Of a stretch of DNA of 30,596 nucleotides, positions 7,571-30,596 are shown one piece after another. The notes below the pieces were generated by a model. The model saw only the letters and a list, made by a program, of their open reading frames with translations, did no database searches and was not told where the DNA came from. How positions within the stretch are numbered: the first letter of the stretch is position 1; each line of letters begins with the position of its first letter. Position numbers and translations under genes: made by a program. Origin of the DNA: a virus; IMG/VR virus record IMGVR_UViG_3300032665_000136, positions 1-30,596 of that record. One strand, written 5' to 3'.

Positions 7571-8408
7571 AACCTCCGTCGATGTAACGATTTAAACTAA
7601 ATTTATTCATTACATGGACATCCAATCCTGTAGTCTTAATAAGAGTATATTCGCCTAGATGACTTTTCTTTTCAATTAAGAATTTCATTTTATTATCATC
7701 TGTACTTACTAAAACATCCTTATCGGATGTATATGTCATTTGTCCAGGTAATTCGATTACAAAATTACCTTCTGTTTTTCCATTAAAAATATGTATAGCA
7801 ATACTGAACGCATAATCATTTCTAAAAGTGTTTGTCTCAATAGCATATAGAGTTCTGAAATAAACCCAATTATTTTTAATGTATTCAATCATATCAAAAA
7901 AAGATTGCATTAATATATTTTTATCAAATATAAAAACACTTGCCCAATAAAAAGGAATGCTATAGGGATTTATTCTCTTAAATGCATCTTCATTTCTATC
8001 CGATGCTAGATCAAAACTTTTTCTGTATATTTGAAATTCGTATTGATTATGTAACGCAGGTTTTAAAATACTAGAATTTAAAATATAATCTGTATCCATG
8101 ACCAATGTGCGATCGTAAGGCGATAAATTATAAACACTGGTACGACTAAAATTTTTCCATTCGGACGTTACTCCTGTAATAGATCCGTCGAAAAATTTTC
8201 TTGTTTGGATTGGTCCTGTTGTGTCTAGTTCTATAACTTGATCAAACCCGTGATTAGGATAATTACTAGACAACCATCGTGTATTATCTGTAATTAAACT
8301 AACAGGAATATCTAAATATTTTTTAATTCTACTAGCGGCAAAAATTGCCATTTTGATGTAATCAATTTTAGAATTATTCTGTGCAATTAGTACAGCACCT
8401 ATTGTCAT
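7560..8408 (-). CDS. Putative GT-A/GT8-like glycosyltransferase (DTD motif), paralogue
   Basis: A 282-residue protein that starts TIGAVLIAQNNSKIDYIKMAIFAA, continues with VSLITDNTRW (about 36-45), a GFDQVIEL block also found in the neighbour, and YDRTLVMDTDYIL with D105-T-D107. Order and spacing match the adjacent 283-residue protein, so the two arose by tandem duplication followed by strong divergence. Its ATG overlaps the upstream stop as ATGA. The catalytic assignment rests on the DxD and fold-like strand order only. It could act on virion surface proteins or on a host or phage sugar; nothing in the window decides this. Confidence 0.73.
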   Translation of the reverse strand: MTIGAVLIAQNNSKIDYIKMAIFAASRIKKYLDIPVSLITDNTRWLSSNYPNHGFDQVIELDTTGPIQTRKFFDGSITGVTSEWKNFSRTSVYNLSPYDRTLVMDTDYILNSSILKPALHNQYEFQIYRKSFDLASDRNEDAFKRINPYSIPFYWASVFIFDKNILMQSFFDMIEYIKNNWVYFRTLYAIETNTFRNDYAFSIAIHIFNGKTEGNFVIELPGQMTYTSDKDVLVSTDDNKMKFLIEKKSHLGEYTLIKTTGLDVHVMNKFSLNRYIDGGYGV

Positions 8409-12765: not shown

Positions 12766-14253
12766 TTATAGAACTAAACATTCTACAAGTTTTGGACCAT
12801 TATCGGCATTAGATTCTAATGCAATAGCAAAAATAAATTGTCCGTCTGCGGGTGCATTGTTGTCAGATTGTCCTGTTCCAGCACTACCTGCTGTGATAAA
12901 ATCACCTTTATTAACTGGTCCTGAAATTATAGTTGGCACACGCCCTTTGATTGCAATATAAGTTCCACCTTCTTGCTCTGAATTCATCATATATGCCGGA
13001 TTAGTACTTACTACTCCAACAGCAAATGTACCAATTTGGCATTGAGTAACTTCTTTTGTTCCGCCAACCATTACGACAGTCCCTTTAGGATAGTCTCGAT
13101 CCATTATGTATTTTTCTGCTAAGTCGGCATAGTTAGCAGAAGTTGCTGTTCCTTGGAAAATGTTTGCAGATAAATTTCCATTTGAATCACGACCAGCAAT
13201 AGTATTTGCAGAAGCGGTCGTTGTAGCTGATGCATAACCGTAACTAGCAAGACTTAATAATCCTGCTTGTGTTGCAGTACCAATAAACTGACTAGCATAT
13301 ACATTTAACCATTGATAAGCACTACTACCCAAACTGCTAGTTCCTCCAATAACTGGAAGAGCATCAGTTCCTGTTAGTCTAAGTACCGGAGTAACTGTTC
13401 CGTTCAATTGTGTTGTTTGGAAGAAAATATCGTTAGAGCTAGTAAATGTAGGAGCTGTAACGTTTGCAATTAATCCGCTCTGGACTTGAGCAAGTAAACT
13501 AGGATTTGAACCAATTGTAAATCCTGTGCTAAAATTAGCACTGGTTAATGTTGCGTTTGCAGACTGAACAAACGCACTGGTAGGCAATCCATTAAATAAA
13601 ATTGAATTACTTGCAGTTCCATGGAATTGATATCCGCCAGTTGTAACACCGTTAGTCGATTGGGTAGTATTAACTAGCGTAATACCTTGTTGTATAGTAT
13701 CAAATCCAGTAAATCCTGCTGTGTTACTAGGAATTTGGAATGTTTCATTACTAATAACTGCAACTGTTACACCTTCTGCTTGTACTTGTACGATTGGAAT
13801 AGTTTTTGTACCAGCTGAATTAGTTAAACTTGTTGCATTTACTTGAGTAGTTAAACCGCCTACAGTAACTTCTTGTGGTCCGATTAGTACTGAGTTAGAT
13901 CCGTTATAAACATAAAGTTGATTACTTGCTGTATTAAAATAAAAATCGCCAGATGTTAAACCAGCTGGCTGGGTTGTGCCGGTTTCTGCACCATTTGCTG
14001 TACGGAAATAGCTTCCGTCCCAGAATTTTAATTTTTTATTACCGCTATCATACCAGATTTGACCAGCTAATGGATTTGGCGGTTGGGTTGTATTTGCAAA
14101 ATTTTCAAGCAACCAAACAAAATTATCATTTTGTGCCTGACCGTATCCAGCGTAGTTTTTACCGATTAGGGTAAGATCTGTACTAGTATCAACTGTGCCG
14201 TCCGCAACTGTTGCTAATAATACTCCATTGTAGTGATTAATTGTATATGACAT
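12766..14253 (-). CDS. Tail-fibre-like protein with shared N-terminal domain and G2-like C-terminal domain
   Basis: A 495-residue protein. Residues 1-90 (ADGTVDTSTDLTLIGKNYAG, FVWLLENFANTTQPPNPLAG, IWYD) are the same domain found in the next two upstream genes and probably anchor these proteins to a common virion site. The middle is beta-rich and low complexity. The C-terminal about 110 residues (NYADLAEKYIMDRDYPKGTV, VGVVSTNPAYMMNSE, AIKGRVP, GPVNKGDFI) resemble a C-terminal domain of many phage fibres similar to the peptidase-G2/intramolecular chaperone type. That would imply self-cleavage after folding, which is uncertain. A GATAAATATA late-promoter-like motif and AAGGATGAG precede the ATG. 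Confidence 0.78.
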   Translation of the reverse strand: MSYTINHYNGVLLATVADGTVDTSTDLTLIGKNYAGYGQAQNDNFVWLLENFANTTQPPNPLAGQIWYDSGNKKLKFWDGSYFRTANGAETGTTQPAGLTSGDFYFNTASNQLYVYNGSNSVLIGPQEVTVGGLTTQVNATSLTNSAGTKTIPIVQVQAEGVTVAVISNETFQIPSNTAGFTGFDTIQQGITLVNTTQSTNGVTTGGYQFHGTASNSILFNGLPTSAFVQSANATLTSANFSTGFTIGSNPSLLAQVQSGLIANVTAPTFTSSNDIFFQTTQLNGTVTPVLRLTGTDALPVIGGTSSLGSSAYQWLNVYASQFIGTATQAGLLSLASYGYASATTTASANTIAGRDSNGNLSANIFQGTATSANYADLAEKYIMDRDYPKGTVVMVGGTKEVTQCQIGTFAVGVVSTNPAYMMNSEQEGGTYIAIKGRVPTIISGPVNKGDFITAGSAGTGQSDNNAPADGQFIFAIALESNADNGPKLVECLVL

Positions 14254-14297: not shown

Positions 14298-15689
14298 TTA
14301 CCAACCAGATGTTGTTAAAGCCGCTCTACCCCATGTAGCATTTCCGGTAGTTCCACCGCTTACACATACATAGATATAACTAGAATCCCATGCAATCTGC
14401 CCTGTTGTACCTGCCGCTGAATGACTTGCAGGAGTTGATGTTGCAGTTGCAATGAAATTAGTTGCTATGACACTTGAACTGGAATGTATTATTCCGCCCA
14501 CATCTAATGGATATTGAGGTCTACTAGACGATGTAAATCCGTTGATACCAATATTACCAGTATTAGAACTTATAAAAAGTGCCGAACTATTAGAACTTAC
14601 CGGTAAAGAAATTTCAAAATCCTGAGATGAAATATTAGATTGTATTAAAAATTGTGTAGAATTAACATTGATTTGCGATTGGTTTGCTGTTCCTAATGTT
14701 AAAGGTATAGCATTGTTAATCTGTAAAGATCCGCTTGTTGTATTTTGATAAGTGTCGGTTGATAAGAATTGTTCAGCTGATTTTAAAGATCCGTTGGCCG
14801 CAAGTAGTTTGCTGGCTTGACTTGTTGGAACATTAAAACTAATTCCTGCCCAAGTACTAACATTAAACCCAACATTGATTGTACCTTGAATTGCATTTAA
14901 AGTTGTAGGATTTCCGCTAGTTGCAACAGTTTGGCTTACACTGACACTATATGTTCCAACTCCGCCTTGTGCTACTCCGGCACCGCCTGGCCCTGTACCA
15001 TATGCAGTAATAACTGTATTAGAAGCAATAGTGTTAATGCCTGGAGTTGTTATTGATTGTCCAACGCTGAGTGTTCCAGAAGTTACACCAGTCACTGTTA
15101 ATGTATTGCCAACAATATATCCTTGAAATACTGCTGTACTTGTGTATCCGCTTATACTGCTAGAAGGACTAGGTGTAAATGAATCTTTAGAAAAGACACC
15201 CATCAATGTACTACCAACATATAACAATACGATTACGTGAGATACTCCGTTTACATCTGTTACAGTTTCAACTACAAATCCCGAAGGACCTTGTTTTTTA
15301 GTATAAATTGGTCCAGCTAAATTATTTGCAGTACCATCATTAAAATATAATTGACTAGTTGCTGTATTAATCCAGAAACCGCCTGTACTTAATCCGCTAG
15401 GAGCAGTATCGCCTAAGAGTGTATTACCAGTTGGGGCAAATGTTGTTCCATTCCAAACTTTTAAAATATTTGCACTGGTATCGTACCATAGCTGACCTAT
15501 AATTGGATAATTAGGTTGACTTGTATTTGCAAAATTTTCTAACAACTGTACAAAATTTTCGTTGATGTACTGTCCATAACTAGTGGCGTTTTGTCCGATT
15601 AAAGTTAATGATGTATGACTTTGATCGATTGCACCGTTAGAAACTGCTGTTAATTTATTGCCATTTGTTAGATAAATTGAATAGGTCAT
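14298..15689 (-). CDS. Tail-fibre-like protein with shared N-terminal domain, 463 residues
   Basis: The N-terminal about 85 residues (NGAIDQSHTSLTLIGQNATS, FVQLLENFANTSQPNYPIIG, LWYD) match the neighbouring fibre genes. A second block around FWINTATSQLYFNDGTANNL and GPIYTKKQGPSGFVVETV is also shared in form. Around residues 185-270 is a fibre module (VFQGYIVGNTLTVTGVTSG, then GTYSVSVSQTVATSGNPTTL) that is also found in the 612- and 698-residue proteins. The remainder is beta-rich, with no catalytic motif. The ATG overlaps the upstream stop (ATGA). It is probably an adsorption-apparatus subunit. Confidence 0.75.
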   Translation of the reverse strand: MTYSIYLTNGNKLTAVSNGAIDQSHTSLTLIGQNATSYGQYINENFVQLLENFANTSQPNYPIIGQLWYDTSANILKVWNGTTFAPTGNTLLGDTAPSGLSTGGFWINTATSQLYFNDGTANNLAGPIYTKKQGPSGFVVETVTDVNGVSHVIVLLYVGSTLMGVFSKDSFTPSPSSSISGYTSTAVFQGYIVGNTLTVTGVTSGTLSVGQSITTPGINTIASNTVITAYGTGPGGAGVAQGGVGTYSVSVSQTVATSGNPTTLNAIQGTINVGFNVSTWAGISFNVPTSQASKLLAANGSLKSAEQFLSTDTYQNTTSGSLQINNAIPLTLGTANQSQINVNSTQFLIQSNISSQDFEISLPVSSNSSALFISSNTGNIGINGFTSSSRPQYPLDVGGIIHSSSSVIATNFIATATSTPASHSAAGTTGQIAWDSSYIYVCVSGGTTGNATWGRAALTTSGW

Positions 15690-17968
15690 GATAAGTTAGC
15701 ACCAGTAAAGATAAGATAGTTAATAGTCAAGTAAGGATTCATCACATTAAATCCTGTTCCTATGTTAGATACTGTACTTGTTCCATCCGAAGAAACAGAT
15801 CCTACTGTAATACCAGTAGTAGAAGAACTTGTAAAGAAACGAGTTTGGTCGCTGTCTGTTGACCCTGAACCGGCCGCACCGTATGATCCAGGTACTGCAT
15901 TAAAAGGTACTCCGCCCTCGGCATATGGATCAATGTGTGAGTGTCCAGTTTGCCCTGGATTATTAGGATCACTAGGTTCGACAACTACGTGTTGGTGCTG
16001 TGGTAAGTTTGATATACCCAATGTTACATTTTGCCCGCCGTTTGTTCCGCCTTCTGTTTGAGCAGAACTTGCAGTTACGTTTTGAGAATTGCCTGCTTGA
16101 CCGCCTGTAGCTATTGGACCAGGTGGAGTAAACCCTGCGACTTCCTGATAGTTATTCATTGTGCTTCTTCCTAACGGAAATCTAGCACGTAGGTCTGGTA
16201 ATACAAACGCATTTGGATTTTGTGCAGTACCATATGTACTACCAATCACTTTATAAAGAGCAGAATATGTAACTGTGCTTACTTCTGATCCATCGCATAA
16301 CAACCAACCAACTGGTATAGCATGAATAGAAGATTTGCCTGCCCAAGGAATAATTCCTCCAACAGGCATACCATAAGCACTGGTATTTAATAAAGGATCA
16401 ATTTGTAAAAATGTTTGTTTAGACATATTTACAAGACTACCGCTACCTGCACTACCTTGGAAAACTAAGAACTGATCGGATTTACTACTTGATTGAGCTA
16501 CAGTTCTAGCAGTACCATTACTGTTAGTCGTAACAACTGACGGACTCAATGAGGTATTAAGTACAGCATACCCTGAAGCACTAGATCCATTGAACCCTGT
16601 TCCATTGTCTGCACTAACGACATCTCCTGCCAATTGGAATGTAATAGTTTGTGTAAGACTACTTGCTGTTCCTGTGACACTACCAGTAACTGTTCCTGTA
16701 AAATTTCCATTAAAACTTCCCACAAATGACTGGGCGTACATGTTTCTGAATGGCTGTGTTTGACTTCCAATATCGTATTGTGGTGTAGAGTTTACCAGTA
16801 CTGGAGGTAATATTATTGCGCCAGCAGTAGTATTTGATGTAATCTGTAATGCACCGCCTAAATTTAAATTATTGTTAATTGTTGTTGCTAAATTTGTTGT
16901 TATTGCTGTCGAAGATACTGAAAATATACTTGCATTGCTTGAATTATTAACAACAATACCACCGGTTGTACCAGTTGTACCTGATGTAATTATACCACTG
17001 ACTGTTGTCGGAGCACCTAATGCAACTTTACCAGATACATCAAGATGTAATAAATTATTTCCATTTAACAAAAAATCAATATTGTTTGTACTGGTCTTAC
17101 TATTAAATAGGAATGTGTTGTTGCCTTGGCCAATAGTTAAACTTAAATCAGTTCCAATACTAAGACCATTTGTATTTCTAATGTTGAAAGCATTATTTGT
17201 GGTACTTACAACATCCGATCTTAAAAAATTACTACCTTGTACAACTGATTGTGACGACCCCGAACCAACAATAAGTGCATTTGAAGACTGAGCTATACCC
17301 CAAACATAGGCTACGCCTTTATCTAATGAGTTACTGTATAAGTTTACACCAATATTAATAGTTGAAAAGCCGGCAATCGTAGCTTTAGGAGTAAAGGAAT
17401 CAATACTAATAATTGCTACACGATATGCAACATTATTTGTAGCACTTGAAGCATATAATGAAATTACGCTATGTGATATGTTACTTGTATCAACAATAGA
17501 TTCTACTAAAGGTCCTGTACTTGCACCTGCACTAAACTGTGGACCTATTAGCAACCATGTGGTTCCTGAAAACAAATACAACTGACTATTGTCGGTATCG
17601 ACCCATAGGTCACCTTGATTACTATTTGTAACATCAGGAACACCGCCCGTGCTAGCTAATGTGCCTTTACCTTCACGTCTAATAGCACCAGCTTCCGGCC
17701 AGTTGCCTGCACCGTCATAAACTCTAAGTACGTTATTGCCAGATGCAGTATCATACCATAATTGTCCTTGAACAGGATTGCTAGGAGGACTTGAATAAGC
17801 AAAATTTTCTAATAAATGTAATAAATTTCCAGCAATTAACGAACCATATCCTGCATATCCTTGACCGGGAAATGCAAGACTAGTTTGCTGATTAACCGTA
17901 CCATCGGCAACTGTAATAGCTGGTTTTGCTGGATTAGCAGAATCTGTAAATGCAACTGAATATGTCAT
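15686..17968 (-). CDS. Tail-collar domain fibre protein, 760 residues
   Basis: The N-terminal about 90 residues (VADGTVNQQTSLAFPGQGYA, LLHLLENFAYSSPPSNPVQG, LWYD) are the shared attachment-like domain. The long middle is a Ser/Thr/Asn-rich beta region with YDIGSQTQPFRNMYAQSF near 407. A phage tail-collar domain follows at about 530-600: GGIIPWAG, PVGWLLCDGS, YSALYKVIGSTYG and FVLPDLRARFPLG. After it come LPQHQH and GHSH, His-x-His motifs of the kind that bind metal in T4 fibre tips. It ends NPYLTINYLIFTG, typical of collar proteins. A TAGGAG site lies 9 bases before the ATG. The collar fold is used in short-tail-fibre and receptor-binding tips, so a receptor-binding role is likely. Confidence 0.88.
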   Translation of the reverse strand: MTYSVAFTDSANPAKPAITVADGTVNQQTSLAFPGQGYAGYGSLIAGNLLHLLENFAYSSPPSNPVQGQLWYDTASGNNVLRVYDGAGNWPEAGAIRREGKGTLASTGGVPDVTNSNQGDLWVDTDNSQLYLFSGTTWLLIGPQFSAGASTGPLVESIVDTSNISHSVISLYASSATNNVAYRVAIISIDSFTPKATIAGFSTINIGVNLYSNSLDKGVAYVWGIAQSSNALIVGSGSSQSVVQGSNFLRSDVVSTTNNAFNIRNTNGLSIGTDLSLTIGQGNNTFLFNSKTSTNNIDFLLNGNNLLHLDVSGKVALGAPTTVSGIITSGTTGTTGGIVVNNSSNASIFSVSSTAITTNLATTINNNLNLGGALQITSNTTAGAIILPPVLVNSTPQYDIGSQTQPFRNMYAQSFVGSFNGNFTGTVTGSVTGTASSLTQTITFQLAGDVVSADNGTGFNGSSASGYAVLNTSLSPSVVTTNSNGTARTVAQSSSKSDQFLVFQGSAGSGSLVNMSKQTFLQIDPLLNTSAYGMPVGGIIPWAGKSSIHAIPVGWLLCDGSEVSTVTYSALYKVIGSTYGTAQNPNAFVLPDLRARFPLGRSTMNNYQEVAGFTPPGPIATGGQAGNSQNVTASSAQTEGGTNGGQNVTLGISNLPQHQHVVVEPSDPNNPGQTGHSHIDPYAEGGVPFNAVPGSYGAAGSGSTDSDQTRFFTSSSTTGITVGSVSSDGTSTVSNIGTGFNVMNPYLTINYLIFTGANLS

Positions 17969-17971
17969 CTA

Positions 17972-18583
17972 TTATACTCCTACTAGGCCAGTTAAACTTT
18001 GGATACGTACAGTATAATCGATTTGAATTAATCTGTTAAGACTTTTTAAAACTGGATGAAATATAACATGAGTTAGTAGTAAACTATTTCCGCTTGCACT
18101 ATAACTTTGTAATCCTAATTCATCGAACACATACGTTGTTTCGCCTGTTGAAGAAGTATCGTATGCACTTTGTCCGCCAGGCTCACCGTAATCCAGTAAA
18201 CAAGTACAGAAAATATCTGTGTAGTTAACACCGGTCACATGGCGAACTTCAGTAAAGTTGCGAGTTGGATCGGTATTTGTGCTAGCAGTTGGGTCGATTA
18301 CTTTTTTATATGTTTGATTGTACAAGCTGGCATTTGTTCCGCTGGTATTAGGTGTAAGATATGTAATAATTCCTGTAGGATCAATACTGGTTCCACCGTT
18401 ACCAAAATTCATCTGGTAGATATATCCGCCATCTGTATTGTTTGACAAACTGGCAGCCAGGGCGTAACTTATGTTTTCATAATGAATAGCGTTACGTTTA
18501 TTAACGAAAATTTCTTTGGAAACTGGGTCAAATATTTTAATATGACCTTCCACATGAATTCCTGTTTGATCTTTAGTCTGCAT
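17972..18583 (-). CDS. Putative virion structural protein, 203 residues
   Basis: Starts MQTKDQTGIHVEGHIKIFDP and contains IHYENISYALAASLSN, YIYQMNFGNGGTSIDPTG and a C-terminal beta block, LLLTHVIFHPVLKSLNRLIQ. No catalytic motif is seen. Position and composition place it with the tail and fibre proteins; the FGNGGTSID region is familiar from unannotated virion proteins of T4-like phages, by memory. An in-frame TTG ten codons upstream (18613) is rejected because it would overlap the GATAAATATA promoter motif. The ATG has a weak GAGAG site. The gap to the next gene is 3 bases. Confidence 0.72.
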   Translation of the reverse strand: MQTKDQTGIHVEGHIKIFDPVSKEIFVNKRNAIHYENISYALAASLSNNTDGGYIYQMNFGNGGTSIDPTGIITYLTPNTSGTNASLYNQTYKKVIDPTASTNTDPTRNFTEVRHVTGVNYTDIFCTCLLDYGEPGGQSAYDTSSTGETTYVFDELGLQSYSASGNSLLLTHVIFHPVLKSLNRLIQIDYTVRIQSLTGLVGV

Positions 18584-18601
18584 AGTTGTCTCTCTTAGTC
18601 T

Positions 18602-18611
18602 TATATTTATC
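18602..18611 (-). promoter_or_regulatory. T4-type late promoter-like motif
   Basis: GATAAATATA on the minus strand ends 18 bases before the ATG at 18583, within the 51-bp gap after the sedolisin gene. It is identical over ten bases to the motif at 14287-14278. A start a few bases downstream would give a short leader carrying the AAGAGAG ribosome-binding site. Confidence 0.55.
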
Positions 18612-18634
18612 AATATTTTAATATGCTAGTTTAA

Positions 18635-20209
18635 TTATCTAACACCTGTTGTTTTTCTTGGATATGACGGTCCTGATGTAGGTCTAAAACCATAATTTTG
18701 TTTTGGAAAAGTACTTCCTGTATGGAAGTATTTGTATATCTGATCAACTTTTGGAGTACCAAGACCTGTAACCGCATCCCAGCCTGTAGTTGTAGTATAG
18801 CCCGTAGTATAGCCGTCTCTATTATCACCGCTAGTAATATCGTTAAACAATAATGCTCTGTTTGAATACCATGTGGACATATTGAATGGAATACGCTGTC
18901 CTAATTGTTGATTTAATCTAGCCCAAATACCCGCCAATAAAGGCGCCGCGGCGCTAGTTCCGCCTACTTGATTTAGCACACCATTTACGTAGTACGCATA
19001 TCCCGTGTTAGGATCAGCAGGAGCACTTATATCTGGAACACCCCGATAAGGTAGTGCAGTTGGTGAACCTGTCGATGATGCTGTAATAGTAGTTGTTGTT
19101 AGTCCTGATTGCCAGCTAGGGAGAGGAACACTAGCACTAACGCCGCCGCCAGATCCGCTCCAAGCTGTTTCACTAGTAATTTGAGCACTACCGTTTAGAT
19201 TAATTGAAGTTCCGCCGGCCGATACCATATATGGACTACAACATGTAGCGGCTGTACTTAGATTAACTGCACCGTTATCGCCTGAGCTTATAAAAACTGT
19301 TATACCCTTAACTACACAAGACTGAAGTGCTGTATCATATTGTGTTCCATCACCGATGCCCCAACTCACATCAAGGGCAGTTGGATTATTTGTAGTGTCT
19401 GCGGCTACTGCTAGAAAAATATCATTAATAGGTGCGGTTCCAGTATTGGGTGCGGTATAGTATGCAATCAATGCCTTTGGTGCTACACCACCTGCACAAA
19501 ATATATCTAGCATACTTTCCAAATCACTAGTTGTGCTGGCAGTAGCACCGTCGACACTTATTTGTACTATAGTTGGAGCTGAAAGTCCAATCCTACTAAA
19601 ACTACTATTAACATCAGTTTGGTTGTATCCTGTTACGTATCCGCTATAGGTTAATTCAAAAATTCCAACACATCCGCCGTAGCCATTAGACGGAGGCATA
19701 TTATAAGCTATGGACATTTGTACAGGAGTTACTGCTGTCAAAGGATTTGCTACACTAGCTTCACAAACTACCGCATGTTTCTTTGCAATAAAACTTTCAT
19801 CAAACCCTAGTACCTGTTCAACCATACTGGAAATATCTGCAGGTACTATTACTGGACTGTCGTGTGATGTATATGTTCTACCAGTATCATCGGTAACATC
19901 CAAAAGTGTTATATTAAAAATATTATTAAAATTTTCAACAGTTCCAAAAACTCTAATTAATCCTTTAACTCTGCTAGCTTCTACTATTTTAAATCCTATG
20001 TCTTGGAAAAAATCATTCACTTCTATAGTATTAGATTCTGTTGATCCGAACTGATACACATACTCATCGTGATCCAAAATTGGGTGAGTACCGTCAATTA
20101 CAGCATCTGCATATTCTTTCAAAGTCATCCCATTATCGTGCGTATCCCTATGCAGGTACACACTGATTGTCATTGTATCTGAAAGATTTTTTAATCTACT
20201 AAACGTCAT
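18635..20209 (-). CDS. Sedolisin-family (S53, pro-kumamolisin-like) serine peptidase
   Basis: A 524-residue secreted-type endopeptidase fold encoded among tail genes. Residues 1 to about 145 match the activation prodomain of the pro-kumamolisin kind (IGFKIVEASRVKGLIRVFGT, DSPVIVPADISSMVEQVLGF). The catalytic residues of the family are all visible: E231 and D235 in LESMLDI (E-x3-D), the oxyanion Asp in ISSGDNGA (D311), and the nucleophile Ser in GGTSAAAP (S419). A calcium-site block follows, with NDITSGDNRDG and GWDAVTGLGTP (about 456-486). The last about 30 residues (FRPTSGPSYPRKTTGVR) are a basic extension outside the usual domain. No signal peptide or membrane segment is seen. Family members typically cut proteins at acidic pH. 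It may mature a virion protein or digest host surface protein. GGAAG precedes the ATG, one base after the upstream stop. Confidence 0.92.
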   Translation of the reverse strand: MTFSRLKNLSDTMTISVYLHRDTHDNGMTLKEYADAVIDGTHPILDHDEYVYQFGSTESNTIEVNDFFQDIGFKIVEASRVKGLIRVFGTVENFNNIFNITLLDVTDDTGRTYTSHDSPVIVPADISSMVEQVLGFDESFIAKKHAVVCEASVANPLTAVTPVQMSIAYNMPPSNGYGGCVGIFELTYSGYVTGYNQTDVNSSFSRIGLSAPTIVQISVDGATASTTSDLESMLDIFCAGGVAPKALIAYYTAPNTGTAPINDIFLAVAADTTNNPTALDVSWGIGDGTQYDTALQSCVVKGITVFISSGDNGAVNLSTAATCCSPYMVSAGGTSINLNGSAQITSETAWSGSGGGVSASVPLPSWQSGLTTTTITASSTGSPTALPYRGVPDISAPADPNTGYAYYVNGVLNQVGGTSAAAPLLAGIWARLNQQLGQRIPFNMSTWYSNRALLFNDITSGDNRDGYTTGYTTTTGWDAVTGLGTPKVDQIYKYFHTGSTFPKQNYGFRPTSGPSYPRKTTGVR

Positions 20210-20210
20210 A

Positions 20211-22883
20211 TTATACTTCCAACTTCAGATATGAGATTGTAACTGTTAGGTTAGATTGTGAAATACTGCTATTGTTGTATATTTTCAAATACATATTTGT
20301 GCTAGGAGTTGCATCACCATTGAATCCTATGACTGCTGGTGTGAAATAAACAGTACCGCTTACAGTACCAGTAGTTATTGCTTCGGCGATAACTCCTGAT
20401 CCTGGAGTAGGATCTGTAGTAATACTTCTACTGCTGTCGTTTGATTGTGCTGTAGTAGTTGTATAAACAGTTACCCATGCACCCGCTGAACATGTTATAC
20501 TATACAATGCATATCCTTTAGCTGCCGTTACAGTTGTAGTTGTGCTTGCACCAGATGTTAAGTTTACGCTTGTGCTAACTGTAGCTCTACTACTTAATGT
20601 TCCAGCAGATACGTTTGCTGTAATTATTCCGCCACTAATTGTAATAGTGGACCCGTCAACTTTGACTGCACCTAGCTGTGTTGTTGAAGCCGTAGGAACT
20701 GAAATTGTTCCTCCGCTAACTGTAATTGTAGTTCCATCTGGTTTAACAATACCTGCCGCGCCAGTTGTTGCTAAAGTTCCGCCTGAACTGCTAATCACTC
20801 CGCCACTGATTGTAATTGTAGAACCGTCAACTTTTACGCCACCCAGTACACTTGTTGTTGCAGTTGGCAATGAATAAGAACTATTTGCACTAATTACTCC
20901 GCCACTGATTGTAATTGTAGAACCGTCAACTTTTACGCCGCCCAGTACACTTGTTGTTGCAGTCGGCAATGAATAAGTTTGAGCTGTAATAACTCCACTA
21001 CCGTTAATTGTAATTGTTGATCCGTCTACTTTGACTCCGCCCAATGTTCCGCCACTAGTTGTACCTGCTATTGGGAGAGTATATCCGCTACCTCCTGCGG
21101 CACTGATAACTCCTCCTAAGATTGTAATTGTCGATCCGTCAACTTTTACGCCACCTAATTGTGTAGTAGATGCAACTGCTAAACTAATTGATCCGCCAGT
21201 ATTATTAATACCGCTTGAACTAACTGGTTGTATACTTACACCGCCAAGTGTACTTGTACCGGCAGCTGGCAATGAATAGCCGCTACCAGATGCTGATATA
21301 ACTCCATTACTAATAGTAATAGTGCTTCCGTCCACTTTAACTCCACCCAACGTATTTGTACTTGCTGTGGGCAATGTATAAGTTGCTGACATTAGTCCGC
21401 TAATACCATTGACAGTGATAGTCGTTCCATCAGGTTTAACACCGCCTAACACACTAGTTGTAGCTATCGGTAATGCGTAAGTTGAACTAATAACACCATT
21501 ACTAATAGTAATAGTAGATCCATCTACCTTAACTCCACCCAGCGTATTTGTACTTGCTGTAGGCAATGTATAACCACCAGAACCTCCAGTAGAACTAATA
21601 ACTCCGTTAGTTATAATAATTGTACTTCCGTCTACCTTAACTCCGCCCAATACACTTGTAGTTGCTGTTGGTAACGTATAATTATTACTTGGTGTTGCAC
21701 TAATGACTCCGTTACTAATTGTAATCGTTGACCCATCTATTTTAACTCCGCCTAATACACTTGTAGTTGCTGTTGGAAGTGCATATTGTGTACTGCTAAT
21801 AACTCCATTGTTTATTGTTATTGTAGATCCATCTATTTTAACTCCGCCAAGTATACTTGTAGTTGCAGTAGGTAGACTGTATTGTTGAGCACTAATAACT
21901 CCGCCTACACTAGTGATAGTAGATCCATCAATCTTAACTCCGCCTAATTGCGTTGTAGTTGCTGTTGCTAAAGTTATTGTTCCGCTTGAATTGTTTAATC
22001 CGCTAGTAGTAACCGTAGGAATTATTACACCACCCAAATTGCTAGTAGTAGCCGATGGCAATGAATAATTGATTGCACTACTAATAACACCATTGCTAAT
22101 CGTAATAGTGCTTCCGTCTACTTTAACTCCGCCAAGTATACTTGTAGTTGCTATTGGTAATGAATAATTTGAACTAATAACACCGAGGCCACTGATTGTA
22201 ATAGTAGATCCATCTACCTTAACTCCGCCCAAAGTACCAGTACTTGCTGTTGGAAGTGTATATCCGCTACCGCCTGCACCTGTTGCACTAATTACTCCGT
22301 TACTGATTACAATAGTGGATCCGTCAACTTTGACACCGCCCAGTACGGAATTAGTAGCAACTGGTAAAGTATAGCTACTGGCTGTTGAGCTTATTACACC
22401 ATTGTTAATTGTTATGGTTGTACCGTCAACTTTAACACCGCCAAGTATTGCTGTAGTAGCAGTTGGCAATGAGTATTGAGTAGTAGTTAATTGGTTTGAA
22501 CCGTTTAGAGTTATTGTTGTACCGTCAATTTTAACACCGCCAAGTATACTTGTAGTTGCAGTAGGTAGACTGTATTGACTAGTACTTGCTTTAATAATTC
22601 CGTTGGTAATAGTAATTGTTGTACCGTCAACTTTAACGCCGCCCAACTGTGTTGTAGATGCTATGGCTAAACTAATTGCTCCGCTAGAATTTATTAGTCC
22701 GCTGGCAGCGGTAGCAGGAATAGTTACTCCTCCTAATATTGATGTTGTTGCTGTAGGCAATACATAAGATGGCTTATTATACAATTCTGTAAAATTAGCA
22801 TTAATTTTTATGCCGGCTGTACGTAATGTGTCTCCCGTACCTGAATTAACAGCCGTTCCTGTGTTGATTAATTGTTGTGCCAT
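20211..22883 (-). CDS. Repeat-built tail-fibre protein, 890 residues
   Basis: The N-terminal about 38 residues (INTGTAVNSGTGDTLRTAGI, KINANFTELYN) are a typical phage fibre opening that often trimerises or anchors. Residues about 40-762 are about 22 tandem units averaging 33 residues, with core pattern Y(S/T)LPTATTS.LGGVK.DGSTITI.NGVIS. The C-terminal about 125 residues (GYALYSITCSAGAWVTVYTT, SITTDPTPGSGVIAE, FTPAVIGFNGD) form a distinct beta domain of a kind I recall at the ends of aquatic phage fibres, probably a tip domain. A stem of identical beta units fits an extended fibre shaft. The start has an AAGGATAAAAG site, and the upstream gene ends 3 bases earlier. The repeats make recombination and copy-number change likely. 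Confidence 0.85.
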   Translation of the reverse strand: MAQQLINTGTAVNSGTGDTLRTAGIKINANFTELYNKPSYVLPTATTSILGGVTIPATAASGLINSSGAISLAIASTTQLGGVKVDGTTITITNGIIKASTSQYSLPTATTSILGGVKIDGTTITLNGSNQLTTTQYSLPTATTAILGGVKVDGTTITINNGVISSTASSYTLPVATNSVLGGVKVDGSTIVISNGVISATGAGGSGYTLPTASTGTLGGVKVDGSTITISGLGVISSNYSLPIATTSILGGVKVDGSTITISNGVISSAINYSLPSATTSNLGGVIIPTVTTSGLNNSSGTITLATATTTQLGGVKIDGSTITSVGGVISAQQYSLPTATTSILGGVKIDGSTITINNGVISSTQYALPTATTSVLGGVKIDGSTITISNGVISATPSNNYTLPTATTSVLGGVKVDGSTIIITNGVISSTGGSGGYTLPTASTNTLGGVKVDGSTITISNGVISSTYALPIATTSVLGGVKPDGTTITVNGISGLMSATYTLPTASTNTLGGVKVDGSTITISNGVISASGSGYSLPAAGTSTLGGVSIQPVSSSGINNTGGSISLAVASTTQLGGVKVDGSTITILGGVISAAGGSGYTLPIAGTTSGGTLGGVKVDGSTITINGSGVITAQTYSLPTATTSVLGGVKVDGSTITISGGVISANSSYSLPTATTSVLGGVKVDGSTITISGGVISSSGGTLATTGAAGIVKPDGTTITVSGGTISVPTASTTQLGAVKVDGSTITISGGIITANVSAGTLSSRATVSTSVNLTSGASTTTTVTAAKGYALYSITCSAGAWVTVYTTTTAQSNDSSRSITTDPTPGSGVIAEAITTGTVSGTVYFTPAVIGFNGDATPSTNMYLKIYNNSSISQSNLTVTISYLKLEV
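20600..22766 (-). repeat. Tandem coding repeats (about 22 x 33 codons) with a higher-order period
   Basis: Units of about 99 bases encode LGGVK(V/I)DG(S/T)TITI-type blocks. Two adjacent copies, 20791-20878 and 20890-20977, differ at 3 of 88 positions, and all three changes are silent. A 41-base identical run recurs at 21844-21884 and 22537-22577, exactly 693 bases apart. Three composite pairs (SGL.N.SG.I.LA then TTQLGGV) mark block starts at units 1-2, 8-9 and 16-17, so groups of 7 to 8 units appear to have been copied as well as single units. Confidence 0.85.
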
Positions 22884-22886
22884 CTT

Positions 22887-25800
22887 TTATCCTTGGTCCA
22901 TTGTTGTGTTTCCGGTATCTAAACTAACATTATTACCGTCAAATGTTGGGTCTGTACTATTACTTATTTGAATAAAGCCATTATACCATATGCCAGGTTG
23001 TGCCTTAACAAAGGTTGATACAGTATCTTTTCCTTGTAAAATACTAGTCGTAGAAGTACCAGCACGTACACTTGGGGACTGATTTAATTGTTTTAAATCG
23101 TATCCATCCCATAGTGTTCCAGTAGTTCTGACCACTGTTATTAATGTACCAAACGCTGGAGCATTTGTTAATGTAATTGTTGAAGTTCCATTAACTGTAA
23201 AATCCGCAGGATAACTTACATCACCTGCTGGACTATACGGTGCATTATTAATATCAAATATCTTGTAAGATTGTTTCTTTAATCGAACAAGATCATTTTG
23301 TCCACCTACAAATATTTCAATCTGGTTAGCCGATGTAACAGTATACGGCAATGTGATTGTAGTTGTACCTAAACTTGTTATTTGTGTTGTCTGAACTGTG
23401 TCAATATAAGGAATAGTTTCACTTGGGCCGATACCTTGTACAAATGTTCCAGATGGATTTACTTTTGTTACTCCTGTACCTAACGTACCTCTGCGAAGTT
23501 GTCCTAGTGTATTTCCGGTTAATGTGAAGTATTCAATGCGTTCGCCTCGAATTTCAACAACGCCTGGTTTATTATTAGAAGGACTCGGTATATCAAGATT
23601 GCTTGCATCTGATACAATAATTGTAGTATCATTCCAATGTAGTGTTTGTGCTAGTGTTGTTTGTTTATTCAAATTCAAACGTTTATAATTTACACGATTC
23701 AACATGTCTTTAAATTGCATATATGCAATACTAGTTTGAACTACATTATTACCAAATGTAATTAATGTAACTGTATCCGTAGGAGATAATGTTTTTGCCA
23801 ATGTGATACTTTGGAAATCACTATTTAAAATGTAATCAATGCTGTTAGATAACAATGTTGAATTTTTTATTACCCAAACATAATTTCCATCAATTACTGG
23901 ACGATCTAATTTGATAATGCCGCCTGGTATATTTTTATAATTGAAATAACTAGTTGAGCTTGGAGTTATGTTATAACTTGAGTTATACTGAATAGTTGTT
24001 CTTTGAATATCCAATACATTCTGCACATAAGAACTAATAATTTCAACCACACCAGATGGAACTGTTGCAAATGTTATTTGACTAGTAGAAGGATTATAAG
24101 CATAGGCATTGTTTGCAACAATACTTACAATTAATTGCTGTCCAGAATATTGAGAATAAATTGCTCTATTAATCTTAATAGTAATACCAGTTGGGTCTAT
24201 GCTATAATCAGAAGATGCATTTAATAAATTATTACCTGCATAAACTAGAATGTTATTAGTTGTTACTGACTGAGGAACAGCCTTAGATGGATCAATGGTA
24301 TAATTTAATCTATTACCACCAATTGTAAAATAACTGTTGACTGGTGCGGACAATATTGATTGTCCTACACGTACAATCATATTACTTTCGTAAGGTAAAT
24401 TATTTCCAATTGGGTATGACAAAGTGTAAGCCGATACACCAACTACTGGTGTAATTGATTGTGTTGTTGTGATTGCAAATGTTTGTTGCAAACCAGACAC
24501 TATAATATAATTGATTAATGCACCGGCTGGTGGAGGAGATGCAAATTGTATTCCAATAAATCCAGCAACTTCATAAGATGTATCTGTTTCAAATAAAGTC
24601 ACTGATGTTGCAACACCGTTTACATACACTAAACTTGTTACAGTACTATTCCAGCTAGCTCTTGTTATAAAATCAACTGTTGTACCATCACCAATAAAAT
24701 AATCAATATCTAACAAATTAGATCCACTAAATCCGACACTATAAATTGATACAAGTTGGTTTGCTGTTGGAGTATTGATGAATGTAATATTAGGAGTTGT
24801 AGTGTAGTTAATCAAATAATCAGTATTATAAGTTACAATATTACCATTAAGTTTAACAATAATAGCTCTTGAACTATTAGGTTGTTGTCCAATATTATAA
24901 GTCGATGTTATTCCATCAGTTTCATAGTTAACAACTTTTATGTTAGCTGAACCTGTTCCAGTTTGATCATATACTTTAATTGCAAGTGTATCTACTACTT
25001 GTCCCGGTACTACTTCTTCTGGTGCAGGGCTAGATGTTGGTGTAACAAATCCGTCACCGTCTAATAAAATATCATCAGGTGCTAGTCCGGTTGCAGTTGT
25101 ATAAGCTAAATTGCCGCCATCTAATTTTGTATCGTAATCAGTATCCGGTGTTGGTACTGAACCATCACTAGTACTTTCACGTAGAATAAATCTGTCTCCA
25201 GTATTTACAGTAAAAGAAGCAGGAAGTTCTATGACATTTGTAATAGATTGATCAATCACAGTTCCACTTAAAGTAGATGCAAAACTAGTAGTACTAGCCG
25301 ACCCGCCATAATCGACAGCACTAAAAGATACTGATAAACTAGCACCACCGCCACCGATCGTTGCAGGAGTAATAGTAGTACCAACTACTGGAGTTTTTAT
25401 AATAGCGTTGGCATTGGTTTGCTGTGCTGTTCCAAAATTAGGATCATCTAATCTAATTGGACTATATGTTCCAGTTATATTAATGGTAGATCCCACTGGG
25501 TACGCTGTTTTTAATGTAGCACTACCTGGTATTAGTACAACATCAGTTAATTCTTGTAATTTTTCTGTAAATGTAACTTGTGTCGAAGGTAACATGTTAG
25601 TTAAAATAACTTGACTCAACGTTACAGCATTAGTCGATGTGTTAATTGCTGTAATTGTTGTATCATAACTAAAAGAACTCACTGTAGCGGCTGTTCCTGT
25701 TCCTGATCCTACACCTGTTGCAGTAAATGATTCTCCTGTTTGATTAGCTAATGCGCCGATTAATGTAAAATCGGTTGATCCAATACTGCTAATTGTATAA

Positions 25801-28800
25801 AGAATACCCGGAGTAAATGACCCCGCAGTAACCAATGCGTTAGTGACTACGGCTCCAACTTTTAATCCGTTTAAAGAATTAAGTGTTAATACATTACCTC
25901 CTGCAATATTAGAAACTGTAAGAGAACTACCGTTAGTAGGTAAAGAAGAAAATATTATTGCTTGATCATTTGGTGGAGTTGCATCCGGTGGAGCACTAAT
26001 TTTTAAAATTGTGCTACTGACAACACTAACTACAGTTTGTCCAGACAAGAAATATGCCGGAGTTGCAACACCGTTGACTGAAGTAGTCGATGTTATTAAC
26101 ATTCCAGGAATAATTTTTGAAGTGCTTGACACTTGTAAAAGTATACCTGAACTACCGAACGAATTATAAAAACGTAGGTAAGATAAATTATCTGGAATAG
26201 AATCTAAGATAAGTGTTGTACTATTTTCTATTCGAAGAATTTTTTGTCTACTTAAAAATCCTTGTCCATAAATTCTCATACCAGGTACCATACCTGTAGT
26301 AGACGCAACTTTAACTATAAACCCTGCACTACCTAAAGAATTATATGTTGTAGTAATTCCAGAAGTTAACGCACTAGTTGTAATTGTTACCGATGGACTA
26401 ATTAAATTTTGATCCACTGGGTAAACAAGTGTACTACCGTCCGATGTGTATGAATAAGTTTTTTGTTTAACATAATATACGTTGATATTAGTATTGTTAG
26501 GTGGTGTATATGGTAACGTGAATACGTGAGTATTTGCTAATACTTGAACAGAGTAATCATTAAAATTAGGATCTCTACTATCCCATGTATCACTCAAATA
26601 AGGTGCATCGTCCCAACCACCTGAAATGTTAAAGTTTAATCCTGTAACTGTTACACCGCCGTAATCTGTTCCTGTCATTAACTGACTTAAATCTTTACCT
26701 AACTGTCCTGTTGTAGGATTGTAAAAATATTGAATTCTGTCTGTAGCTGTTAATACTGAGATATCTTTATGATAAGTTACAATAATTGTTGATCCAACTG
26801 CTATATTAAAAGTAAATGTAATGCTACCGGTATACTGAGTATAACCTGATTCCATTGATGTCACTTTTGAAAGAGTATATAATTCTCTCAAGACAGGTGT
26901 TCCATTTACAGTCACTACTGTTTGATCTATTCTAGTATCAGGTGCCCATGTCAATGGATACTGTACACGATTAATTATTGCAGTAAATGTATCAACTTGT
27001 TGCAGATTAGTAATATAATATCCATAATTAACTCTATCAAATTTCATACCTACTAAATTTGAACGTACTAATCCGTTGCCAATAATTGCAACTGCTTGAG
27101 CTTGCACTCCGTTTGCACCTAGCCCGCCATTAATTGTCACTGTAGGTGCAAATAAATAACCGTTACCACTTGCACCAAATTGATCAACATTTAATAAAGT
27201 TATTTTAGAAACTTTACCATTTGAAATCAATGCGTCGGCTGTTGCTGTAACAGGATTTGATCCTGTTGGAGATGATATTATAATCTGCGGAACATTAGTA
27301 TAACCGCTTCCTCCATTTGTAATGACAATTTCAATAACTTTAAATCCAACATTGTCATTCCAAAATTTCCAAGGATAACTTTCAATCAACGGATTACTTG
27401 TTTGAAGTGTTCCATTAACATCTGTTACTTGTATTGTTGTAAATCCGCCATTTTCGTAAGTAGTTTGTAAATCAAAATCAGTTACAGCACTTTCAGTTGT
27501 ATCCATACCAGTATAGTCACTGATATATTCTCTAACTTTTGTTCTGTAAGGTTTAACTTCAGCTACATAATCTTCAAAATTTCTTAAATTATCAATTGGA
27601 TAGTTTACAGGCTGACCTAATGTACCTACTTTATGGGTAGCACGTACAAAACTTGTTTTAAATATCCAGTCAATGAAAGGCTGTTCGCTATGTGCATAAC
27701 GAACATTAGTAAAGAATAGATCTAAATAATCTTGTTTTAAATCGTCTATTAGAATATTATTTTTAATACAATTAAGAATTATTCTTAATTCAGCACTGGC
27801 TTGTACGTCAAAGTCACCGCCATCGAAAATGTTAGCATCATATCCAACATCTGTACCTGAGAACGAATACAAGCTAGATTTAAACTGGATCGTTCCATTT
27901 TCTATACCGACAATTCGATAACTTTGTGTCCAGTCTACGCTAGTTGAACTAGCATATTTTTCTAATAATATCCAATTGCTACTGCTACCATTTATAATCT
28001 TAACTAATATACCGATACCCTGGTCACTTAATGCCGAAAGACTTTCATTAACTACAAACAAATCTGCAAATGTGTTTATTTTAAAATCTGGTCCGTTAAA
28101 CTGGCTAAAACCAGTTGCATACCAATCAGTGTAACTCCAGTATTTTCTAACATCATATGACTGTGATAAGGATCTTGACCAAATTCCAGTAGCAGGATCA
28201 TAAGAGTAAATACTCCATGCACCGTATGCGGTACTGTCGGATAAAATTAATACAGAATAACTTCTAATTGTACATATTGTATTGTTGTTATATCCTTGTC
28301 CACCATTAATAATAGTAGCACCAGTTATCTGACCTAGTGCATTAATAGTGGCTTTTACTATTGCGCCTTCACCTGATCCAGTAATTTCAATATAAGGTGC
28401 ATATCCATAACCATTTCCAGCATTTACTATTGTTATCCCAGTGATAGATCCGTTAGTTATAACAGGTTTTACTGATGGTAACGCAAATGATCCAATACTA
28501 GCAAATTTTAATTCTGCTTCTGTATTATAAGAAATATCCCATAATCCTAGAATTTTATCAGGAGTAGGATCATAACTTTCCAACGCCGATATGTTTCTAG
28601 AATTAGTTGTTTGGTATGTACTTAATACAAGATTGGTACGTTCAATTAATTCTTTAATTGCTTCTACACGATTAACAAACATTCCTTGACGAGGACGATT
28701 TTCAATACCGTAACGCAATTTAACTGGTAAGCTAGGATCCGGTACTGGTCTACCACCCTGGTCGACACCACATAAACTATCAAACCATTTTTGTTCAATG

Positions 28801-30596
28801 GTATTTGGTAAATCTACAACAGGATCGTTACTAATTAATTTCCATTGGCTATGAATATTTTGGTCTGTTTTATCAATAGTCCAATATTCAATTGCTAGTG
28901 CTACATCAGTTCCGTTTAGATATCGACTTGCATTTATAAGACTAAAGCTATTAGTACCAGTTAATGCAAGACATGTATAATCTTGTCCGCTTGGATTTGC
29001 AATTAAATTTGCAACATCATTTGCAGACATATTTCTTCCATCGACGCTAGGAATAATTTTTTTATTTTTTACCCAGAAATAATAAGTGTTTGTAAATGTT
29101 TTACTTACTGTGTCATATTTTGTAGTTGAGCTATAGGCTGAATTACCGTATAAACTTTTTCCGCTGATACCTGCTGTTAGTCCAGCTGGTGTATCAGCAA
29201 TACTATCCCATACACTAGGTAATTGATTATAACTTACCCATTCGTAAATATCAACACTTGCACCTGCGGCAAGTGTATTCCATGCAGTGTTTCTATATAA
29301 AGGATCTGCAAAATAATTATTAACAAATTTACAAGTTCTCAGATCCCACCATAGTTGACCGACTGGTTGGTCTGACCACCATCCTTCAATTCCGTTTGAA
29401 GATGCAACATTAACTGTTACTGTACTATCACTGTAACTATAAGTTGCTGGGTCAAAGAACGTTTGATATTTGATTTCTTCTTCGGCAGGACCTGGAATTT
29501 TTCCTTGTAAAGGATCTACAACATCCAAATAAGTAGACAATGTTCCTAATTTTTTATTATACAGGAATGCTTTTTTAATTTTACTTACATCTGGAATGGA
29601 TACTTGCGTGTTATAAATTGTCCAGGCAAATACATTACTTAACTTTGTATATGTATAAACTTGTCCAGATTCAATATTATTAAACATTGCATACGGGGCA
29701 CTAATTGCAATTTGATTATTGCCTACTGCAAATCCAGTTCCGTATCCTTCTCCAAATTTATTTTCAGTTGCTAATGATTCGCTGAATATCCATTTACTAT
29801 TGTATCTGTCGTAAATGTCAACCCTACCACTTGCATTATCTGCTGTTAAAAAATCAGTTGAATTTCTGTCAAATGTCGTTGTAGAGCTATCAAAGGAAGT
29901 ACTAACTGTAGTATCACCGTATAAACTATAAACAACAATAGTTTGACTATCATTCATAAATGATATCTTGTTACCAAATAAAGAATTAGTTTCAGGATTA
30001 TTACTAATTAATGCTTGATTAAAAATATACTGTCCATTTACAAGAGAATATACATTGATACCGCCTGCTTGCACTTTTGTATTACTTTGTGTATCATCGG
30101 AAATAGCAATATAATTTCCATAGTCGGATATTGCTATTCCAAATCCAAAATTAGAGTCAGATCCAACTAACACCTGCATAAAATCAGGATTGTTAACATC
30201 AGACACATCGTACACACTTACTGCACCGGATGACGATACTAATAATGTGTTTCCATCTGCTGTTATTTTTAATGCACTACCAAAATTTACAGGGTTAGTT
30301 AACGATGCATCTGGATCGATATGTCCACTATAAGTCCATGTGTGTTCTACAAAGTTAATTGTTCCGCCTGGTAAACTGTTTTGATCAACCGGTGAATCTA
30401 AGAATAACGTATTCAAAGGTATAATTGGAGCAGAAGTTCCGCTTAGTTGATTAGTGCTAGCAACAGCAAATGTTAAATTAACATCGTTATTAATAACCAG
30501 TTGTGTAATGGATGTACTCATGTCTTGAGTAGAACCAACAATCAAATAACTAAATGCTTGTTGTGATCCGTTTATTGTAAGATTTTCTTGTCCCTG
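22887..30596 (-). CDS. Giant virion structural protein, 5' end outside the window (at least 2569 residues)
   Basis: The reading frame stays open to the right edge, so the true N-terminus is missing; the first seen residues are QGQENLTINGSQQAF. Residues below count from the edge. About 95-315 hold FG-GAP/beta-propeller-like blades (FGSALKITADGNTLLVSSSG, FGFGIAISDYGNYIAISD, TGFAVGNNQIAISAP). About 410-640 hold GQLWWDLRTCKF, YYFWVKNKK and RYGIENRPRQGMF. GYGYAPYIEI and GGSGYTNVPQI-type Gly repeats lie near 730-760 and 1095. HSEQPFIDWIFKTSF is near 970. The C-terminus (about 2300-2400) has GVVEIRGERIEYF, LRRGTLGTGV and GPSETIPYID. This set is familiar from very large structural proteins of T4-like aquatic phages, by memory. 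Role unknown; a tail or baseplate-associated appendage is likely. An ATG at 30521 lacks a ribosome-binding site and is not taken as the start. Confidence 0.82.
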   Translation of the reverse strand, partial: QGQENLTINGSQQAFSYLIVGSTQDMSTSITQLVINNDVNLTFAVASTNQLSGTSAPIIPLNTLFLDSPVDQNSLPGGTINFVEHTWTYSGHIDPDASLTNPVNFGSALKITADGNTLLVSSSGAVSVYDVSDVNNPDFMQVLVGSDSNFGFGIAISDYGNYIAISDDTQSNTKVQAGGINVYSLVNGQYIFNQALISNNPETNSLFGNKISFMNDSQTIVVYSLYGDTTVSTSFDSSTTTFDRNSTDFLTADNASGRVDIYDRYNSKWIFSESLATENKFGEGYGTGFAVGNNQIAISAPYAMFNNIESGQVYTYTKLSNVFAWTIYNTQVSIPDVSKIKKAFLYNKKLGTLSTYLDVVDPLQGKIPGPAEEEIKYQTFFDPATYSYSDSTVTVNVASSNGIEGWWSDQPVGQLWWDLRTCKFVNNYFADPLYRNTAWNTLAAGASVDIYEWVSYNQLPSVWDSIADTPAGLTAGISGKSLYGNSAYSSTTKYDTVSKTFTNTYYFWVKNKKIIPSVDGRNMSANDVANLIANPSGQDYTCLALTGTNSFSLINASRYLNGTDVALAIEYWTIDKTDQNIHSQWKLISNDPVVDLPNTIEQKWFDSLCGVDQGGRPVPDPSLPVKLRYGIENRPRQGMFVNRVEAIKELIERTNLVLSTYQTTNSRNISALESYDPTPDKILGLWDISYNTEAELKFASIGSFALPSVKPVITNGSITGITIVNAGNGYGYAPYIEITGSGEGAIVKATINALGQITGATIINGGQGYNNNTICTIRSYSVLILSDSTAYGAWSIYSYDPATGIWSRSLSQSYDVRKYWSYTDWYATGFSQFNGPDFKINTFADLFVVNESLSALSDQGIGILVKIINGSSSNWILLEKYASSTSVDWTQSYRIVGIENGTIQFKSSLYSFSGTDVGYDANIFDGGDFDVQASAELRIILNCIKNNILIDDLKQDYLDLFFTNVRYAHSEQPFIDWIFKTSFVRATHKVGTLGQPVNYPIDNLRNFEDYVAEVKPYRTKVREYISDYTGMDTTESAVTDFDLQTTYENGGFTTIQVTDVNGTLQTSNPLIESYPWKFWNDNVGFKVIEIVITNGGSGYTNVPQIIISSPTGSNPVTATADALISNGKVSKITLLNVDQFGASGNGYLFAPTVTINGGLGANGVQAQAVAIIGNGLVRSNLVGMKFDRVNYGYYITNLQQVDTFTAIINRVQYPLTWAPDTRIDQTVVTVNGTPVLRELYTLSKVTSMESGYTQYTGSITFTFNIAVGSTIIVTYHKDISVLTATDRIQYFYNPTTGQLGKDLSQLMTGTDYGGVTVTGLNFNISGGWDDAPYLSDTWDSRDPNFNDYSVQVLANTHVFTLPYTPPNNTNINVYYVKQKTYSYTSDGSTLVYPVDQNLISPSVTITTSALTSGITTTYNSLGSAGFIVKVASTTGMVPGMRIYGQGFLSRQKILRIENSTTLILDSIPDNLSYLRFYNSFGSSGILLQVSSTSKIIPGMLITSTTSVNGVATPAYFLSGQTVVSVVSSTILKISAPPDATPPNDQAIIFSSLPTNGSSLTVSNIAGGNVLTLNSLNGLKVGAVVTNALVTAGSFTPGILYTISSIGSTDFTLIGALANQTGESFTATGVGSGTGTAATVSSFSYDTTITAINTSTNAVTLSQVILTNMLPSTQVTFTEKLQELTDVVLIPGSATLKTAYPVGSTINITGTYSPIRLDDPNFGTAQQTNANAIIKTPVVGTTITPATIGGGGASLSVSFSAVDYGGSASTTSFASTLSGTVIDQSITNVIELPASFTVNTGDRFILRESTSDGSVPTPDTDYDTKLDGGNLAYTTATGLAPDDILLDGDGFVTPTSSPAPEEVVPGQVVDTLAIKVYDQTGTGSANIKVVNYETDGITSTYNIGQQPNSSRAIIVKLNGNIVTYNTDYLINYTTTPNITFINTPTANQLVSIYSVGFSGSNLLDIDYFIGDGTTVDFITRASWNSTVTSLVYVNGVATSVTLFETDTSYEVAGFIGIQFASPPPAGALINYIIVSGLQQTFAITTTQSITPVVGVSAYTLSYPIGNNLPYESNMIVRVGQSILSAPVNSYFTIGGNRLNYTIDPSKAVPQSVTTNNILVYAGNNLLNASSDYSIDPTGITIKINRAIYSQYSGQQLIVSIVANNAYAYNPSTSQITFATVPSGVVEIISSYVQNVLDIQRTTIQYNSSYNITPSSTSYFNYKNIPGGIIKLDRPVIDGNYVWVIKNSTLLSNSIDYILNSDFQSITLAKTLSPTDTVTLITFGNNVVQTSIAYMQFKDMLNRVNYKRLNLNKQTTLAQTLHWNDTTIIVSDASNLDIPSPSNNKPGVVEIRGERIEYFTLTGNTLGQLRRGTLGTGVTKVNPSGTFVQGIGPSETIPYIDTVQTTQITSLGTTTITLPYTVTSANQIEIFVGGQNDLVRLKKQSYKIFDINNAPYSPAGDVSYPADFTVNGTSTITLTNAPAFGTLITVVRTTGTLWDGYDLKQLNQSPSVRAGTSTTSILQGKDTVSTFVKAQPGIWYNGFIQISNSTDPTFDGNNVSLDTGNTTMDQG

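Follow-up and report, generated by a model that had tools for sequence, protein, structure and literature searches.

The whole stretch of DNA analysed here, 30,596 nucleotides and referred to as the window, is a fragment of a freshwater jumbo phage of the RaK2/121Q/Atu_ph07 type, and its IMG/VR record is incomplete. On its minus strand, an open reading frame with an ATG start at positions 18635..20209 encodes a kumamolisin-type S53 peptidase of 524 amino acids, as identified by phmmer, Pfam and Foldseek. Its N-terminal part is a pro-kumamolisin activation prodomain (residues 10-137, minus strand 19799..20182), which matches Pfam PF09286 with 43.5 bits at a cut-off of 23.5. The catalytic domain comprises residues 158-486 (minus strand 18752..19738). 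Residues 14-486 align with pro-kumamolisin 1t1e with an E-value of 3.5e-61 in a phmmer search of the PDB. In this alignment E231, D235, D311 and S419 fall on E78, D82, D164 and S278 of kumamolisin; E231, D235 and S419 are the catalytic Glu, Asp and Ser and D311 is the oxyanion Asp, the set of residues that defines S53 membership. The calcium block D457-I458...G476-x-D478 is in register with the Ca-site block of kumamolisin at the sequence level. All four active-site residues are invariant among 34 distinct phage S53 proteins, down to 36% identity. An AF2 model calculated from the alignment of these 34 phage sequences has a mean pLDDT of 89.3, and its top PDB match in Foldseek is again 1t1e (E 2.1e-41, TM 0.81). 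Prodomain, Glu-Asp-Asp-Ser site, Ca site and fold are common to the window protein and to kumamolisin and kumamolisin-As (MEROPS S53, PDB 1t1e and 1sio). In contrast to kumamolisin, the phage enzyme is encoded behind a fibre gene and carries an additional C-terminal tandem tag.

We conclude that the reading frame encodes a complete kumamolisin-type S53 peptidase. The earlier note, made from the sequence alone, had proposed just this, including the four catalytic residues, the prodomain and the calcium-site block, and each of these points holds, with the gene on the minus strand. Its statement that a secretion signal is missing is true by inspection but carries little meaning, as no obvious signal is seen either at the N-terminus of the bacterial kumamolisin-like relatives that we inspected. 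Purifying selection acts on the gene, with dN/dS of 0.05-0.11 in five S53 pairs, two of which are near saturation at synonymous sites. Residues 238-463 also match Peptidase_S8 (PF00082, subtilase clan) above cut-off. This match is explained by the clan shared by S53 and S8; the Asp-His-Ser triad of an S8 subtilase is absent and the Glu-Asp-Ser of S53 is found instead. A prohead maturation protease of the S77/S78 type could likewise be rejected, since PF00082 and PF09286 are the only Pfam matches of the protein.

Upstream of the peptidase gene, separated by a single nucleotide (20210..20210) between the fibre stop and the protease ATG, lies the gene of an 890-residue fibre protein (minus strand 20211..22883). 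It contains many 'LGGVKVDGSTI' repeats, on which Pfam places its Phage_head_fibr matches. Its last ~130 residues (762-890, minus strand 20214..20600) form a conserved fibre C-terminal domain, here called FCD. Its predicted model is all-beta with a pLDDT of 95.5 and reads as a jelly roll; no confident match was found when the PDB was searched for this fold. The domain contains invariant residues.

The two genes occupy a slot with well-defined borders. On the upstream side the slot is bordered by a giant structural ORF (minus strand 22887..30596, 5' end outside the window), which is related to proteins of the jumbo phages RaK2, 121Q, Atu_ph07 and Phosso. The 3' border is a conserved 213-aa protein downstream of the peptidase (phrog_11259, minus strand 17972..18613) with 42-52% identity to proteins of the same four phages; it marks the phage lineage. 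A tail collar fibre (PF07484, minus strand 15686..17968) follows downstream of the cassette. Atu_ph07 and Phosso have neither an S53 gene nor a repeat fibre in the interval from the giant ORF to the 213-aa gene. We compared 80 loci that contain the 213-aa gene. The slot in front of this gene is taken by an S53 peptidase at 17 of them and by a subtilase at 10, and at 32 the 213-aa gene comes directly after the giant ORF. Six of the slot subtilases were checked with Pfam and are S8 members well above cut-off. In one relative (L049:7288-7971) the slot is occupied by a lectin-like Laminin_G_3 protein and not by a protease.

Elsewhere in the window, the gene of a MoxR-type AAA ATPase precedes, on the plus strand at 59-2402, that of a vWA protein which begins with a metallopeptidase domain (PF13203 and PF09967). 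The two correspond to the MoxR and vWA-metallopeptidase chaperones that have been described as a pair in group 2.2 jumbo phages (PMC7824862). On the minus strand, four glycosyltransferase-like ORFs are found at 4561-8408, in two similar pairs by inspection, and no Pfam family scores above its cut-off for them. A further fibre at 12766-14253 (minus strand) gives a weak match to the self-cleaving chaperone domain Peptidase_G2 (E 0.0085, below cut-off).

Among 50,697 deposited phage records, we found no S53 peptidase. IMG/VR yielded 37 S53 loci, ranging from identical down to 41% identity, and 38 distinct proteins were available after more loci had been fetched. A literature search combining sedolisin or kumamolisin with phage returned no paper describing a phage S53, searches within two jumbo-phage reviews turned up no mention of the family, and a search for cyanophage subtilisin with tail fibre returned nothing on point. 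A search of genome contigs with the phage-only S53 alignment gave no match; bacterial relatives were recovered with an S53 alignment including kumamolisin. These come from many phyla, and the phage enzyme is at most 37% identical to them. The earlier note had suggested a phylogeny against bacterial S53 enzymes. In a tree that includes the nearest 80 bacterial sequences only, a branch with support 100 has the phage S53s together on one of its sides. The subtilase-clan model gives exactly one match, the S53 itself, in 23 of the 24 S53 contigs searched. Cyanobacteria are not supported as hosts of the S53 phages: psbA was found in none of the S53 contigs tested, some of which are fragments, whereas it is present in two FCD-S8 contigs. 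Cyanobacteria are thus improbable hosts of the S53 phages.

Almost all S53 loci have an FCD fibre directly upstream with a gap of 1 nt. This linkage is kept in entirely different gene neighbourhoods (L009/L014/L022, L015 and L032). At two exceptional loci (L038 and L042) the S53 directly follows the giant ORF and carries a variant tag, and their partial contigs show no FCD. A further exception is L040, whose S53 of 860 aa contains an insertion as well as a cadherin-like domain and has no tag. Within L040:7989-17294 it adjoins a 2,234-aa protein that looks like an alpha/beta-hydrolase esterase at its N-terminus, and a separate FCD fibre is found on the contig. Six S53 proteins (L111, L146, L151, L152, L176 and L201) of ~408 aa are devoid of the prodomain and retain the tag and the upstream FCD fibre. 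They represent a natural case of S53 enzymes lacking the folding and inhibitor domain. Four FCD fibres (L061, L062, L069 and L070) have no adjacent protease, and for L070 the cassette is found elsewhere on the contig.

A survey of FCD domains places the peptidase in a wider context. Among the matches listed, which comprise 156 FCD instances, the next gene is an S8 subtilase in 112, an S53 peptidase in 27 and another gene or short fragment in 15; 2 FCDs are internal. S53 or S8 peptidases thus make up 139 of the 154 readable downstream genes among these matches, a 90% share that may be inflated by a survey that is redundant and was seeded from protease-linked FCDs. The gap is 1 nt at 26 of the 27 FCD-S53 junctions and at 70 of the 112 FCD-S8 junctions, again among the matches listed. 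An FCD followed by S8 also occurs in the cultured cyanomyoviruses S-CREM1, S-RSM4, S-H9-1, S-CAM4 and Sf-FR1. S8 peptidases in cyanophages have been noted before, in passages that draw no link to a fibre (PMC3037559). In the marine cyanomyoviruses S-CREM1, S-H38, Sf-FR1, S-RSM4 and S-CAM4, the S8 gene takes the same position 3' of the FCD fibre as the S53 gene and differs from the window S53 in peptidase family and prodomain. S-H9-1 contains a second FCD fibre, and the protein encoded after it (767 aa, L126:7494-9797) does not carry the usual tag, so that the FCD may also pair with other partners. The earlier note had described S53 enzymes as best known as secreted acid peptidases; to read the phage enzyme as one of these out of place misses its membership in a widespread fibre-protease cassette.

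The two families have been exchanged on the same fibre domain. A tree built from 117 distinct FCDs shows 5 switches of the S53 label, at least 4 of which are forced by well-supported branches; the underlying alignment is short, and the deep forks of the tree lack resolution. L138 with an S53 and L144 with an S8 are sisters with support 100/100. This topology indicates that S53 and S8 were swapped at least 4 times.

Both families share a conserved C-terminus. In the window S53, it comprises residues 497-524 (TGSTFPKQNYGFRPTSGPSYPRKTTGVR, minus strand 18638..18721), which we propose as a docking peptide. The consensus in S53 and S8 is a tandem TFPK-x5-RPxSGxxYPR. The window S53 ends in TGSTFPK-QNYGF-RPTSGPSYPR-KTTGVR, and a slot S8 given as an example ends in RPLTGATVPK-CNHRR-RPASGVAYPR-IRGRR. 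In the 34 phage S53 proteins, P502, R509, P517 and R518 are as invariant as the catalytic residues. A profile built from S53 tails only matches the C-terminus of 48 of 86 S8 proteins, with a best E-value of 2e-11, and none of 860 shuffled tails. The core [YFW]P[RK] is found within the last 40 aa in 24/24 S53 and 72/86 S8 proteins and in 1-2% of random internal windows; many of the 14 S8 proteins without it at the C-terminus end in an extra domain. The S8 proteins of S-CREM1 and Sf-FR1 end in the same tag as the phage S53. It is found in none of the 80 bacterial S53s, and it is absent from the S8 proteins of P-SSM2 and Phosso, the two phage S8s without an adjacent FCD that were compared. A tblastn search with the 36-aa tail alone returned two chance Listeria matches only. 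A mere recombination scar could be rejected as the origin of the tag, since pS is 0.67 and pN is 0.13 over its length, so that synonymous sites have diverged and amino acids were kept. In the monomer model, tag residues 501-509 and 514-524 have a pLDDT below 50, as would be expected if a docking peptide adopts its fold solely in contact with its partner. The proposal of the earlier note that the basic C-terminal extension tethers the enzyme to the tail is thus well supported.

Given this linkage, the shared tag and the swapping of protease families, we consider a docking system at the fibre tip, with interchangeable proteases acting on host surface protein, to be the best explanation and a reasonably probable one. 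The cassette would consist of a repeat-rich fibre ending in the FCD and, as the next gene, a clan SB protease, which is an S53 in the window and an S8 subtilase in most relatives. With a distance of 1 nt between the genes, the protease is probably translated together with the fibre. The flexible tandem tag at the end of each protease would bind the FCD that terminates the fibre and thereby place proteases at the fibre tips of each virion. The window S53 would be made as a zymogen that its prodomain keeps inactive in the neutral host cytoplasm and that processes itself under acid or later conditions; its proteolysis would accordingly be acid-active and self-activating. Zymogen control is plausible for the window S53 and is not general, as some phage S53 proteins lack the prodomain. 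The active enzyme would then cut a host surface protein during adsorption, such as an S-layer, an outer-membrane protein or a pilus. Tag-FCD binding, activation, substrate and virion location are steps that we infer; the last, which the earlier note had suggested, gains indirect support from a protease gene that is strictly linked, 1 nt away, to the gene of a fibre with a conserved C-terminal domain.

The T-even phages offer a precedent for such an arrangement. Their distal fibre gene 37 is followed by a separately encoded adhesin, gp38, that sits on the fibre tip. Here too the partner gene lies directly 3' of the fibre gene after a gap of 1 nt, and the window has no Pfam match to the gp38 family. 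In contrast to gp38, the partner is an enzyme whose docking segment is apparently a C-terminal peptide. By analogy, enzymatic tailspikes and depolymerases likewise would bring an enzyme at a fibre or spike tip to the host coat. These are glycan enzymes within a trimeric beta-helix spike, whereas the cassette encodes a protease as a separate polypeptide.

The main rival is that the protease takes part in assembly by cutting the FCD fibre encoded with it, or further tail proteins, with the tag holding it on the substrate, comparable to prohead proteases or self-cleaving fibre chaperones. The gene adjoins that of its putative substrate and carries a probable docking tag, the FCD has invariant residues, and processing of virion proteins is common in phages and has been suggested for jumbo-phage peptidases (PMC7824862). 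The giant ORF, the 213-aa protein and the collar are nevertheless kept in the 32 of 80 relatives without the cassette in the slot, and the protease is therefore not needed for these core tail proteins; absence of the cassette from the slot is what would be expected of an adsorption module. It is also hard to square a fixed cleavage site with two families whose specificity and pH range should differ and that swap on close FCDs. Since the cassette is accessory and the families of its protease are exchanged, we regard maturation as unlikely and favour it less than docking. The trimming of fibre proteins raised by the earlier note becomes the weaker option for an accessory cassette, with both fibre and protease missing from the slot in these syntenic relatives.

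The fibre linkage could also reflect late co-expression only, with a free enzyme acting in the dying cell or outside after lysis and not as part of the virion. S53 enzymes usually are secreted hydrolases, and 1-nt coupling would ensure late expression. Co-expression fails, however, to explain a conserved tag that is common to two protease families and tied to one fibre domain, and we find this reading rather improbable. A purely structural use, in which the S53 or S8 fold serves as an adhesin with incidental catalysis, would agree with the position of the gene where T-even phages encode their tip adhesin. It is very improbable in view of the catalytic residues retained throughout the 34 S53 proteins and of S8 members that match Pfam well over cut-off.

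If we extend the docked-protease reading beyond the window, aquatic tailed phages could possess a jelly-roll socket at the fibre end for the tandem tag, in which S8, S53 and perhaps other proteases are exchanged according to host coat or ambient pH. We put this forward tentatively. S53 may suit acidic humic waters, which is an idea only. The S8 version occurs in cultured cyanophages, which opens the docking model to test now. If the docking tag is real, fibre-borne phage enzymes could be sought by a rule that is open to test, and a common class of cyanophage proteins annotated as 'hypothetical' would gain a likely function. Protein coats may then be attacked at the fibre tip by some phages in the way that capsules are by others. 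From the comparison with relatives, many aquatic phages seem to carry interchangeable proteases that the same short C-terminal tag holds on the end of a fibre, where they probably serve to cut through host-surface proteins.
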